From: Catellatospora sp. KI3
Lineage (GTDB): Bacteria > Actinomycetota > Actinomycetes > Mycobacteriales > Micromonosporaceae
Assembly: GCF_029948125.1 (NCBI RefSeq)
Contig: NZ_JASAMB010000006.1
Span: forward strand, 186,001-250,000
DNA length: 64,000 nt
Direction: 5' to 3'
Shown here: piece by piece, positions 8,127-63,131 of the stretch
Layout of the letters: the number at the start of each line of letters is the position of its first letter
Position numbering within the stretch: position 1 is the first letter of the stretch
Program-made: the position numbers and the translations under genes
Notes under the pieces: model-generated
Databases searched by the model: none
What the model was told of the DNA's origin: nothing
The model's input: the letters and a program-made list of their open reading frames with translations, nothing else

Positions 8127-8165
8127 ACCGCACCACCCCGCCCGCCCTTCGGCGGGTTGATCATG

Positions 8166-8223
8166 CACTTTCGGGGAGAGTGCTGGAATGGACGCCAAGA
8201 TTCCAGCACTTTCCCCGAAAGTG
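8166..8223. repeat. Dispersed composite palindrome, family A copy 2
   Basis: Arms CACTTTCGGGGA and TCCCCGAAAGTG in inverted orientation with an inner GTGCTGGAAT/ATTCCAGCAC pair. It lies between two converging genes. The bases just before it (GATCATGCACTT) resemble the outer part of the family C element at 42745. Confidence 0.85.
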
Positions 8224-8240
8224 TTTCCTGATCTTGACGC

Positions 8241-26675: not shown

Positions 26676-26700
26676 CGCACGCTCCCACCTCCTCCGGAGG

Positions 26701-26752
26701 TAAGGAAGGGCCCCTTCTTCTCGCTTTGCGAGGTAGAAGGGGCCCTTCTTAA
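26701..26752. repeat. Dispersed composite palindrome, family B copy 1
   Basis: A 52-base unit: TAAGGAAGGGCCCCTTCTT, a spacer with CGCTTTG, then TAGAAGGGGCCCTTCTTAA. Both halves hold the perfect palindrome AAGGGGCCCTT or its variant and the whole unit is an inverted repeat. Other copies: 26790, 46219, 51180, 57124, 57226, 62993. It lies 25 bases past the ccsB stop. Confidence 0.9.
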
Positions 26753-26789
26753 CGTGCGCGTCGGAGTGGTGGGCGCGCCGGAGCGGTAG

Positions 26790-26840
26790 TTAAGAAGGGG
26801 CCCTTGTTCTACGGAAAGCGATAAGAAGGGACCCTTCCTT
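26790..26840. repeat. Dispersed composite palindrome, family B copy 2 (opposite orientation)
   Basis: The reverse-oriented unit (TTAAGAAGGGGCCCTTG...AAGAAGGGACCCTTCCTT), six bases from the stop of the converging lipoprotein gene. Copies 1 and 2 make an inverted pair about 37 bases apart, as do copies 5 and 6 at 57 kb. Confidence 0.9.
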
Positions 26841-30210: not shown

Positions 30211-30240
30211 GCCGCGCCGCGCCGGGCGCTCAAGATCCGC

Positions 30241-30300
30241 GCAGTTTCGGGGAAAGTGCGCGAATCTTGGCCCCCATTCCTGCACTTTCCCCGAAACTGC
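30241..30300. repeat. Dispersed composite palindrome, family A copy 3
   Basis: Sixty bases with arms GCAGTTTCGGGGAAAGTGC and GCACTTTCCCCGAAACTGC, perfectly inverted over 19 bases, with a variable centre. Convergent gap between mqnP-like and ubiX genes. Confidence 0.9.
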
Positions 30301-30350
30301 ACTCGCCCGCGCCGCGCGTTCGGGCCGCGCCCGGTGGGTGGGGCGGGGGG

Positions 30351-36056: not shown

Positions 36057-36071
36057 CCACCGCACTTCAGC

Positions 36072-36115
36072 GCCCACACCTGTGGGGGTGTACGTACACC
36101 CCCACAGGTGTGGGC
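36072..36115. terminator. Perfect 44-base palindrome, no loop
   Basis: GCCCACACCTGTGGGGGTGTAC is followed directly by its exact reverse complement. It starts 15 bases past the desulfhydrase stop. It can end transcription from the left, and with the next hairpin from both sides. Confidence 0.85.
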
Positions 36116-36141
36116 CCGCACCGCAAGCCGTCCGTGGAAAG

Positions 36142-45916: not shown

Positions 45917-46090
45917 GTCCCCGATCCATGCCATGCCCTTCATGGCAGCACGCCCACCCCGCCCGCCACCACACCCCGAACCCACTCGCCGCGAAAGCGT
46001 TAGACGCCGTTGCGCGAGCCTCACGCGCCGCGCCCGCACCCGCGCCGCGCCCGCGCCGCGCCCGCACCCGCACCCGCGCTGCGTGGTGCT

Positions 46091-46150
46091 GCAGTTTCGG
46101 GGAAAGTGCTGGAATTCGGGCCAATATTCGCGCAGTTTCCCCGAAACTGC
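46091..46150. repeat. Dispersed composite palindrome, family A copy 4
   Basis: Arms GCAGTTTCGGGGAAA and TTTCCCCGAAACTGC in inverted orientation. With family B copy 3 it fills most of the 350-base gap between helD and the PLP enzyme gene; the remaining part (45944-46090) is a run of GCGCCGCGCCC-like low-complexity DNA with no gene seen. Confidence 0.9.
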
Positions 46151-46218
46151 ACGCCGCTTTGGCCGCACCAGCGCCCGACAGGGGCGCCGCTGGCGTTCTG
46201 CGGCGGTGTGGTGCGGGT

Positions 46219-46269
46219 TGGGAAGGGGCCCTTCTACATCGGAAATCGATAAGAAGGGTCCCTTCCTTA
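46219..46269. repeat. Dispersed composite palindrome, family B copy 3
   Basis: Reverse-oriented unit with GGAAGGGGCCCTT and AAGAAGGGTCCCTTCCTTA. Its outer TTA (46267-46269) is the TAA stop codon of helD, so the repeat abuts and even supplies the gene end. Confidence 0.9.
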
Positions 46270-48294: not shown

Positions 48295-48439
48295 GGCCGT
48301 TTCCTCTGGTCGTCGGCGGATGAAGCGGCCGCCCGGCTCTGCGCCTGTGGGGCGGGCGCTGTCGGCTGTGCCAGAGAGGAGGGAATCGACCGACCATGCT
48401 AGTTCCTCATTCGGCGCCCGCACGTGATTTTCTTTACGG

Positions 48440-49012
48440 GTGAGCGCTGGGGAACAGTTGAGGATCACGGATCCAGCGGTGATGCGCGCGTTGGCGCACC
48501 CCGCCCGAATCGCGATCATGGAGCACCTGGCCGGGAGCGTCGACGACGTGACGGCCACCGAGTGCGCCGGGGTGGTGGGCCTGTCGCCGAGTGCGACGAG
48601 CTACCACCTGCGCGCCCTGGCGAAGGCGGGCCTCATCGAGGACGCGCCGAGCCGGGGCGACGGGCGCGAGCGCGTCTGGCGGACCAGGATGCGCGGGTAC
48701 TCCATAGAGCTGGAAGGAAGCGCCGACTCCGAGGCCAAGGCGGCCGAGCGGGCGGTGACCGACGTCTTCCTGGCGCGCGGGGACGAGCGGGTCCGGCAGT
48801 GGGTGGCGCGGTCGGCCGACGAGGCGCCGGAGTGGTACGACGCGGCGCTGATGAGCGAGACGGTGCTGATGGTGACCGCGGCCGAGCTCAAGGAGATCAC
48901 CGAGAACATGCTGGCGATGCTGGCGCCGTACAAGCGGAGCGTGCGGCAGAACGATCCGCCCGAGGGGGCGCGGCGCGCGCTGCTGCAGGTGCGGGCGGTC
49001 CCGCTCGACTGA
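48440..49012 (+). CDS. ArsR-type helix-turn-helix regulator
   Basis: A 190-residue regulator with an N-terminal winged helix (MRALAHPARIAIMEHLAG, then LSPSATSYHLRALAKAGLIE and ERVWRT) and a helical C-terminal half. This two-part layout is common in regulators beside MFS exporters. The MFS gene starts 46 bases after its stop, behind its own promoter overlaid by a long palindrome that this protein is the best candidate to bind. GTG 48440 start. Confidence 0.88.
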   Translation: MSAGEQLRITDPAVMRALAHPARIAIMEHLAGSVDDVTATECAGVVGLSPSATSYHLRALAKAGLIEDAPSRGDGRERVWRTRMRGYSIELEGSADSEAKAAERAVTDVFLARGDERVRQWVARSADEAPEWYDAALMSETVLMVTAAELKEITENMLAMLAPYKRSVRQNDPPEGARRALLQVRAVPLD

Positions 49013-49022
49013 GAGAGGTCTA

Positions 49023-49058
49023 TTGCCCCACCGGGATGTGAAAGACATACTGTGAAGC

Positions 49059-49080
<22 letters not shown>
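49023..49080 (+). promoter_or_regulatory. Promoter and long palindromic operator over the MFS start codon
   Basis: TTGCCC (49023-49028), a 17-base gap and CATACT (49046-49051) form a promoter; ATG follows seven bases later. Perfect arms GTGAAAGACAT (49038-49048) and ATGTCTTTCAC (49059-49069) flank 10 bases, and outer CCCACCG-x-GA / TC-x-CGGTGGG extends the symmetry to 49027-49080. The palindrome covers the -10 box, the presumed start of transcription and codons 1-7. Confidence 0.75.
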
Positions 49081-51168
<2,088 letters not shown>

Positions 51169-51179
51169 CCCAGAGCGGC

Positions 51180-51231
51180 AAGGAAGGGGCCCTTCTTATC
51201 GCTTTCCGATGTAGAAGGGCCCCTTCTTAAC
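51180..51231. repeat. Dispersed composite palindrome, family B copy 4
   Basis: AAGGAAGGGGCCCTTCTT, a centre with CGCTTTCCGATG, then TAGAAGGGCCCCTTCTTAA. Twelve bases past the mqnA stop, in a convergent gap. Confidence 0.9.
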
Positions 51232-51274
51232 CCGCGACGCCCGGCCCGGCCCCGGTCGGGTCGGGTCGGGTCGC

Positions 51275-57119: not shown

Positions 57120-57123
57120 AGGC

Positions 57124-57178
57124 GTTAAGGAAGGGCCCCTTCTTATCGCTTTCCGATGTAGAAGGGGCCCTTCTTAAC
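57124..57178. repeat. Dispersed composite palindrome, family B copy 5
   Basis: The fullest copy: GTTAAGGAAGGGCCCCTTCTT, centre ATCGCTTTCCGATG, then TAGAAGGGGCCCTTCTTAAC (split by this description). It begins five bases past the paaE stop. Confidence 0.9.
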
Positions 57179-57225
57179 GTGCCCTGTCGGGCGGCCGAGC
57201 GACGTCCGGCCGCCACTGTCGAGCG

Positions 57226-57279
57226 GTTAAGAAGGGCCCCTTGTTCTACGGAATGCGATAAGAAGGGCCCCTTCCTTAC
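57226..57279. repeat. Dispersed composite palindrome, family B copy 6 (opposite orientation)
   Basis: Reverse-oriented unit ending one base before the stop of the converging esterase gene. Copies 5 and 6 are an inverted pair separated by 47 bases, which themselves contain a short inverted repeat (GGCGGCCG / CGGCCGCC). Confidence 0.9.
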
Positions 57280-57280
57280 C

Positions 57281-58141
57281 TCAGGGCTGGGGGTGGGCGG
57301 TGAAGAAGGCCCAGATGAGGGTGTTGGCGTCTACCGGGTGAGCGCCCCCGTCGGGCCACTCGTGGCCCATGCCGATCACGCTGTAGACGACGTGCTCCGT
57401 ACCGTTGCCGCAGCTCGCGGTGTATCGGTGCGCCTTGCCGTGCGGGCCGGTCAGCGTCTGCACCGCCGGTTCGCCGCAGGCGGCCAGGCGGCGCCACTGG
57501 TTGTTGGTGCCGGGCCAGGAGCCGGCGAACCGGTCCGTGCTGCCCTGGAAGGTGAGCAGGGATACGGGGGCCGCCAGCGGCCCGGCGCCGTCCGGCTCGG
57601 TCTCGTTGCGGCCGCTGACCGGGGCGAGGGCGCCGAAGCGGCCGGGCAGGTCGCGGGCGAGCCGGTAGGTGAAGGCGGCGCCGTTGGAGAAGCCGGCGGC
57701 GTAGGTCCGCTTCGGATCGGCGCCCCACTCCTTGACCAGGTGGTCGAGTAGCGCGCCGATGAAGCCGACGTCGTCGGCGCCGCCCGTGCGCGAGGTGTTC
57801 CAGCGGTCGCCGAACCCCTGGGGGTACGCGACGAGGAAGCCCTTCGTGTCGGCGAGCGGTGACATCCGGCTGGTCCGCTCGGCGTCAGTGCTCTTGCCCG
57901 GCTGGCCGTGGAAGACCAGGACCAGGGGCAGCGCGGTGCCCGGCGTCCAGCCGGGCGGGGCGTGCAGCCGGTAGTCGCGGCGTACGCCGCCGTGCATCAG
58001 GGCGAGGTCGTGGTCGCCCGGTCCGGGCTGCTCCGGCGGCAGGCTGACCGCCGGGCTGGGCGCGGCCGCGGGAGGCGTCCCGGTCGCGGCGCAGCCCGTG
58101 AGTACGGTGGCGAGGGTCAGCAGCACGGCGAACTGTTTCAC
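57281..58141 (-). CDS. Lipoprotein esterase of the PHB depolymerase/feruloyl esterase type
   Basis: A 286-residue alpha/beta hydrolase with lipobox LTGC near residue 17, so outside and membrane-tethered. The oxyanion strand LVLVFHGQPG, nucleophile AAGFSNGAAFTYRLA (Ser about 155) and catalytic His in VIGMGHEWPDG fit the LpqC/PHB depolymerase family. A Cys pair (LAACGEP, TASCGNG) is probably a disulfide. The true substrate may be an acyl or feruloyl ester. GTG 58141 has GGGGGA seven bases upstream. It diverges from padR-mqnC. Confidence 0.87.
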   Translation of the reverse strand: MKQFAVLLTLATVLTGCAATGTPPAAAPSPAVSLPPEQPGPGDHDLALMHGGVRRDYRLHAPPGWTPGTALPLVLVFHGQPGKSTDAERTSRMSPLADTKGFLVAYPQGFGDRWNTSRTGGADDVGFIGALLDHLVKEWGADPKRTYAAGFSNGAAFTYRLARDLPGRFGALAPVSGRNETEPDGAGPLAAPVSLLTFQGSTDRFAGSWPGTNNQWRRLAACGEPAVQTLTGPHGKAHRYTASCGNGTEHVVYSVIGMGHEWPDGGAHPVDANTLIWAFFTAHPQP

Positions 58142-62610: not shown

Positions 62611-62633
62611 CGCGCGGGGCGCGGCGCCGTTCG

Positions 62634-62695
62634 TGCAGTTTCGGGGAAACTGCACGAATCATGAGCGCGATTCGCGCAGTTTCCCCGAAACTGCA
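62634..62695. repeat. Dispersed composite palindrome, family A copy 5
   Basis: The most symmetric copy: both halves are perfect small palindromes (GCAGTTTC-GGG-GAAACTGC and GCAGTTTC-CCC-GAAACTGC) and the two halves are inverted to each other around 20 or so variable bases. Confidence 0.92.
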
Positions 62696-62749
62696 CCCTG
62701 CCCCACCCGCCCGGGTCACGATCGGAGGGTGGGGTATGAGGAGAGCGCG

Positions 62750-62959: not shown

Positions 62960-62992
62960 CGAGCACCGGGTGCCGAACTCCTGGTGACGAGC

Positions 62993-63043
62993 AAGGAAGG
63001 GCCCCTTCTTCTCGCATTGCGTAGAGGAAGGGTCCCTTCTTAA
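62993..63043. repeat. Dispersed composite palindrome, family B copy 7
   Basis: AAGGAAGGGCCCCTTCTT, centre CTCGCATTGCGTAG, then AGGAAGGGTCCCTTCTTAA. Convergent gap between the small ORF and the LPXTG gene. Confidence 0.88.
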
Positions 63044-63131
63044 CCCGGTGGCCAGGCCCGCGTGCATAGGCACGTGGGCACCACAGGTTCGGTCAGCCGG
63101 TCAGTCGGTCGCCGGTCAGTCGGACAGCTGG

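Follow-up and report, generated by a model that had tools for sequence, protein, structure and literature searches.

A 54-base inverted repeat lies over the predicted promoter and the start codon of a putative exporter gene of Catellatospora sp. KI3, and the question it raises is what such a palindrome does in such a place. It was found in a 64,000-nt stretch of the genome, the window, whose positions are used as coordinates below. The original prediction described a substrate-responsive switch on a leaderless message, working either by repressor binding or by RNA folding that hides the start codon, with an ArsR-like gene directly upstream and an MFS exporter gene downstream. Both gene assignments were borne out by Pfam. 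The product of 48440-49012 (+ strand; 190 amino acids, with a winged helix and a C-terminal region) passed the cut-offs of HTH_5 (arsR; 36.8 bits, cut-off 22) and HTH_20 (34 bits, cut-off 27), and the name ArsR-like appears valid at the family level, metal sensing being without support. Its score against the NCBIfam metalloregulator model NF033788 was 47.2 bits, below the cut-off of 55, and a metal-sensing ArsR/SmtB identity was rejected for this reason. The single Cys of the window regulator is Leu in locus L048 in a five-sequence alignment. A regulator structure modelled from five sequences had a mean pLDDT of 64.1, with about 78-92 in the winged-helix part and below 50 in the C-terminal part, and the C-terminal half of the model is unusable. 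The product of 49059-50291 (+ strand; N-terminus MSFTSRW) passed the cut-offs of MFS_1 (105.2 bits, cut-off 33.4) and MFS_3, the models by which a DHA3-type MFS exporter was recognised, and scored 123.4 bits with the H+ antiporter model TIGR00900, below the curated cut-off of 319.6.

The repeat finder placed the two 25-nt arms at 49027-49051 and 49056-49080, 4 nt apart, with 22 of 25 positions paired (88%). The inner arms, GTGAAAGACAT (49038-49048) and ATGTCTTTCAC (49059-49069), are perfect, and the right arm spans codons 1-7 of the MFS gene (MSFTSRW). The predicted 54-base extent, the perfect 11-bp arms and the coding of the first seven residues by the right arm were thus all found as described. 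In 20 first-order Markov sequences of window length, the best repeat with 25-nt arms (loop 0-12) had 18-21 of 25 positions paired, and the 22 of 25 seen here exceeds the best of all 20. Seven distinct places in the window, this one included, reach at least 21 of 25; one (46121) equals it, one (42772) is lower and four (near 8195, 30271, 36094 and 62665) score above it, so the perfection of the palindrome alone proves little. The bare repeat is unexceptional in the window, and it is distinguished by its placement and conservation. A search of the 8.2-Mb genome for the 11-10-11 motif with up to 3 mismatches gave this one site.

Loss of the arms at orthologous loci would have refuted the original prediction, which passed this check. 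A regulator match was present in all 11 genomes of the genus and, at E 1e-25, in 230 of 300 genomes of the family. The loci analysed were those among the matches listed in the family search plus 100 more. We oriented 149 loci with a regulator match, of which 125 had an MFS match (the duplicate of the window excluded) and 23 had none. We scored the motif over 21 fixed positions and counted it as carried from 15 upward; on this basis 121 of the 125 arsR-MFS loci keep TGTGAA-N8-TTCGAA-N8-TTCACA or something close to it, and arm pairs covary. The 119 distinct loci, a set that leans toward the closest relatives of the window's arsR, gave the consensus CAGnTGTGAAGGATTATTTTCGAAGTATGTCCTTCACAnCTG, with the start codon at motif positions 22-24 (ATG in 117, GTG in one and ATC in one, L091). 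For genus g12 and others in which the arsR match was weaker, the sites alone were read. Loci L042 and L144 lacked the motif, and one genotype (L003 = L045; G009, Catellatospora tritici) had lost 1 bp between the first and middle half-sites. Despite this loss the downstream unit over the ATG is intact in L003/L045; the regulator of L045 is 94% identical to that of the window. In L091 (G226), where the ATC may be a real variant or a sequencing error, an in-frame GTG lies 21 nt upstream of it, inside the left arm. A gene 3' of the MFS gene (50320-51168), which we take to be mqnA-like, had a match in 105 of the 119 motif loci, some of the others being too short to tell.

Within the genus, an MFS match (E 1e-30) was found in 3 of 11 genomes, and the motif adjoins arsR in those three only, with 0 mismatches in G000 and G008 and the 1-bp loss in G009. 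The remaining 8 of 11 genomes keep arsR without an adjacent MFS match, so arsR must have, or must have had, another role there. At L005, L010 and L012, mqnA follows arsR. No second operator was found upstream of arsR in 118 loci (mean best-unit score 6.36, against 6.59 in shuffled sequences), which leaves autoregulation of arsR unsupported in this family. Two paralogous arsR genes of the genus have palindromes of their own beside them, a perfect 38-nt one around TTTATAAA (L018) and AAGATATCTTTGCAAAGACATCTT (L019). These were read as lying just downstream; both are minus-strand rows, and the palindromes may instead flank the gene at its opposite end.

The conserved motif consists of three hexamers 14 bp apart, that is, two overlapping 20-bp units with the middle hexamer common to both. 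In the window, half-site 1 is TGTGAA (49037-49042, + strand), whose columns are 96-100% conserved in the 119 loci. The shared middle half-site (49051-49056, + strand; consensus columns 14-19) is TGTGAA, or TTCGAA in most relatives. Half-site 3 (49065-49070, − strand; consensus columns 28-33) reads TTCACG on the + strand, within codons 3-4. The TGTGAA that the window's genus has as its middle hexamer makes the downstream unit nearly perfect and weakens the upstream one. Symmetry and the separate units of locus L154 suggest that TGTGAA-N8-TTCACG (49051-49070), over the start codon, is a downstream dimer site. In L154 the motif is split into two separate 20-bp units, TGTGAAAATTCCCTTTCGCA and TGTGAAAGAGTATTTTCACA, upstream of the ATG. 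There TATTTT remains 6 nt ahead of the ATG, and the N-terminus is MALLADPP instead of MSFTS; this one variant found in nature suggests that MSFTS comes with the operator and not with the transporter.

With this architecture, the repeat at 49027-49080 is very probably the DNA operator of the ArsR-type repressor encoded next to it, and two dimers would share its central half-site. We infer ArsR binding, the pair of dimers, repression, a leaderless start and release by ligand. Two ArsR dimers would sit side by side on overlapping 20-bp sites, the upstream unit containing the -10 box and the downstream unit the transcript start together with codons 1-5. As long as ligand is missing, ArsR on its site would keep RNA polymerase from the -10 box and the start; ligand would release ArsR and permit a leaderless mRNA that begins at the AUG. 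Substrate-responsive switching of the exporter would follow by inference from the family.

The putative promoter that had been read from the window, TTGCCC-17-CATACT with the ATG seven bases after the -10 box, matches the sequence: TTGCCC (49023-49028, + strand), 17 nt, CATACT (49046-49051, + strand; TACTGT at 49048-49053 is an alternative), 7 nt and the ATG at 49059. A sigma-70 consensus scan of 48350-49200 reported neither a promoter nor a terminator; the case for a promoter is therefore comparative and does not lean on consensus strength. TTG stands at the same offset, 14 nt ahead of the motif, in 86 of the 119 loci. TAnnnT occupies motif positions 10-15 in 115 of the 119, as TATTTT in 80. 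The 4 that depart from this exact register include the window's own genus; the window has CATACT 7 nt before the ATG instead. In the stretch 5' of the ATG, AGGAG, GGAGG and GAGGT were absent in all 119 loci. The accessible part of PMC3160421 gives TANNNT about 12 bp before the start as a mark of bacterial leaderless genes, and it and that of PMC4633059 describe leaderless genes of Actinobacteria by the same element with no Shine-Dalgarno sequence. As a rule the 119 loci have these features together with an ATG or GTG start. The leaderless geometry of the original prediction is supported by the TAnnnT register and the missing Shine-Dalgarno-like core, and the mRNA of the MFS gene is predicted to start at the ATG.

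Only 7.9% of 49,816 codons in the gene bodies have A or T as the third base, but codon 4 has one of them in 115 of the 119 loci, codon 5 likewise in 115, and both codons do in 111. Thr at codon 4 is written ACA in 85 of 88 cases, a codon used for 2.9% of Thr in the bodies, and Ser at codon 5 is TCT in 58 of 60 cases, which is 1.2% of Ser in the bodies. According to the accessible part of PMC4633059, mycobacterial leaderless initiation has no preference downstream of the start codon, and translation therefore fails to explain the bias at codons 4 and 5. The joint constraint on operator and protein that had been proposed is supported by these counts. Since the downstream half-site is coding, the operator would fix the first residues (MSFTS) and force rare codons; the binding site of a repressor thus appears to dictate the start of the pump protein.

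Covariation of the arms is counted among the evidence for the operator. Along the palindrome diagonal, complementarity had z values of 10.3 (-1/34), 8.8 (-5/38), 6.1 (-4/37) and 3.6 (-6/39), and the largest of 132 off-diagonal cells reached 5.2 and 4.6. These off-diagonal values indicate that kinship inflates z; the pair -6/39 is indistinguishable from them and the three others stand out. We therefore claim no covariation from -6/39 outward. Position -1 is not part of the MFS gene, and position 34 opens codon 5; the pair -1/34 is A-T in 43 loci, T-A in 40, G-C in 10 and G-T in 16. In a FastTree phylogeny built from regulator and transporter together, -1/34 underwent 6 paired-to-paired double changes and 4 more from G-T, all on single branches. 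The 6/27 pair was G-C in 102, G-T in 12, A-T in 4 and A-C in 1 of the 119 loci, and A-T in 11 and G-T in 1 of the 12 sites of genus g12. The -5/38 pair covaries outside the 34-bp core, with all pair types occurring. Simple base-specific recognition does not predict this, and it counts against the operator reading; a weak hairpin function, lineage-specific contacts and mutational self-correction of palindromes are candidate causes.

The pair types at -5/38 would suit a hairpin in which the two arms pair in an arsR read-through mRNA and hold the AUG, with the exporter translated from its own leaderless mRNA only, or only once the hairpin has opened. The read-through RNA of the window folds at -48.3 kcal/mol (z -7.83; matched by none of 200 shuffles), but such a hairpin arises from any DNA palindrome. 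Averaged over the AUG, the pairing probability exceeded 0.5 in 96 of the 119 loci, and yet all three of its bases were paired (>0.5) in just 19. In 86 of the 119 loci none of the five inner pairs, those around the -10 box and the ATG, is intact; the palindrome is broken where the promoter and the start codon require other bases. Arm mismatches were more often G.T than A.C in raw counts, and on the tree the right arm changed 38 times to G.U and 4 times to A.C. This excess is confounded with codons, since 19 of the 38 changes were ACA to GCA and 9 were synonymous TCC to TCT, and the non-coding left arm had no G.U preference (5 changes to G.U, 4 to A.C). The hairpin as a conserved function, for which the raw G.T excess had looked supportive, was rejected; on the tree, the non-coding arm did not sustain that impression. 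In addition, the left arm is absent from the leaderless mRNA, whose 81-nt fold had a z of only -0.63. Some counts lean toward RNA, but a conserved RNA-hairpin function is hard to reconcile with the data, and we regard the hairpin as a very unlikely explanation of the repeat.

Placements of the motif outside the family appear to decide best between DNA and RNA. We searched widely for TGTGAAN8TTCGAAN8TTCRCA with at most 1 mismatch. The pattern was found in 191 of the 300 family genomes, usually at a single site in each, and the reversed-pattern control was found in none among the rows listed for them. It occurred in 64 of 397 genomes of the order sample (5 outside the family), in 2 of 345 of the class sample (1 outside; the reversed control matched in one genome, G893, with 5 per strand) and in 3 of 246 of the phylum sample, where the third match (G841) looked like chance. 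In f5 (L200) arsR is upstream, the MFS protein begins with MPFVS and the TTG is 1 nt off. In f2 (L201) and f107 (L234) arsR is divergent, the MFS proteins begin with MSFTS and MSFTP, and the TTG is at the same offset. In 2 of 16 genomes of family f23 (L231 and L232) the motif lies over the ATG of arsR itself in the same register, with TTGAC at the same offset. These arsR genes start with MTFRDSFELTDPG or MSFRDSFELTDPG (MTFRD/MSFRD), and an MFS gene lies directly 3' of each. In f15 (L197-L199) the motif lies 10-14 nt 5' of the start of a leadered arsR, with 16, 12 and 13 of 17 symmetric pairs, respectively; at L197, AGGAG stands immediately before the arsR ATG, and MFS follows arsR.

With arsR divergent in L201 and L234, both arms cannot lie in a sense arsR read-through, and still the arms persist there, as they do with the element on arsR itself. 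What these placements have in common is arsR plus an efflux gene, not an RNA context. Thus, of the two mechanisms originally put forward, repressor binding is the predicted one that the comparative data support, and folding that hides the start codon is disfavoured by the motif with divergent arsR, on the arsR start, upstream of a leadered arsR and split in L154. A combined scheme, in which the palindrome is the operator and also, as a hairpin in arsR read-through mRNA, silences internal initiation, draws on all that speaks for the operator and for the hairpin and on the covariation past the 34-bp core; none of the data require it, and we think this secondary role unlikely.

The same placements bear on which protein would bind. 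At L209, L210 and L211 the operator stays by the MFS gene with the arsR match 1-2 kb off, as would be expected of an operator for another regulator with arsR as a bystander. Against this, arsR is the constant partner across placements, including those with the motif on the arsR start and directly upstream of it, and a bystander arsR is thus very improbable. The placements on, upstream of and divergent from arsR tie the motif to this gene, and ArsR as the regulator would fit them. The strong stem and the company of other palindromic repeat families in the window would suit an arsR terminator, a mobile repeat or a structural one. This reading is contradicted already by the present results, namely a single copy in each genome, one type of location and a fixed register to the ATG, and has next to no probability; the terminator was rejected, as the scan of 48350-49200 found no terminator-like site.

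ArsR-regulated efflux genes and leaderless genes are each known kinds. ArsR/SmtB repressors of efflux genes act at inverted repeats of GAA/TTC half-sites that overlie the promoters of their targets, a form that the repeat here shares. Like CzrA, SmtB, NmtR and ArsR, the window regulator is a winged-helix ArsR family protein encoded beside an efflux gene. Unlike them, it has 190 amino acids with a long C-terminal region and misses the metalloregulator cut-off, its target is an MFS gene, and the operator would extend over the start codon and codons 2-5. Foldseek matches of the low-confidence regulator model were 1uly/2cwe (P. horikoshii), 4g6q (Kribbella), 4omz (NolR) and 3jth (HlyU); the likeness to ArsR homologues of the NolR, HlyU and PH1932 type is at 15-26% identity, with the C-terminal half of the model unreliable. 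From the leaderless genes of Actinobacteria, in the accessible parts of PMC3160421 and PMC4633059, the locus differs in that a conserved 34-bp operator, which would constrain codons 2-5, is merged into its predicted leaderless start. No description of such a fused ArsR-operator and leaderless-start cassette was found in the open literature, subscription papers lying mostly outside the search.

It is possible, if somewhat short of probable, that the element is a portable promoter-operator-start cassette of about 50 bp, placed on MFS and arsR genes in different classes of the phylum, which makes the gene it fronts leaderless and ArsR-controlled and writes M-S/T-F at its start. It would run TTG, 14 nt, TGTGAA, N8 holding the -10 box, TTCGAA, NN-ATG-NNN, TTCACA. 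Two unrelated proteins (MFS and ArsR) would then share an N-terminal peptide because they share one operator. About 34 bp appear to carry promoter, operator, transcript start, start codon and peptide together, a case of overlapping codes, and hundreds of genomes show how the conflict is settled, with the palindrome broken at the -10 box and the ATG and rare codons retained. The motif may serve as a predicted regulon marker, and its locus offers a ready genetic test of DNA versus RNA control. It also advises caution, as conserved N-terminal residues may reflect an operator and not protein function.

Other palindromic families were seen in the window. A 76-nt palindromic repeat (GCAGTTTCGGGGAAA ... 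TTTCCCCGAAACTGC) has five copies, with 63-79% identity to the reference copy, at 2321-2396, 8162-8237, 30238-30313, 46088-46163 and 62632-62707. Hairpin families with AAGGGCCCCTT arms, some as facing pairs 90-100 nt apart, lie at 26696-26840, 46217-46268, 51174-51235, 57121-57283 and 62987-63048. A gapless palindrome around CCCACACCTGTGGGGGTGTAC/GTACACCCCCACAGGTGTGGG, with 23 of 25 positions paired, occupies 36069-36118.
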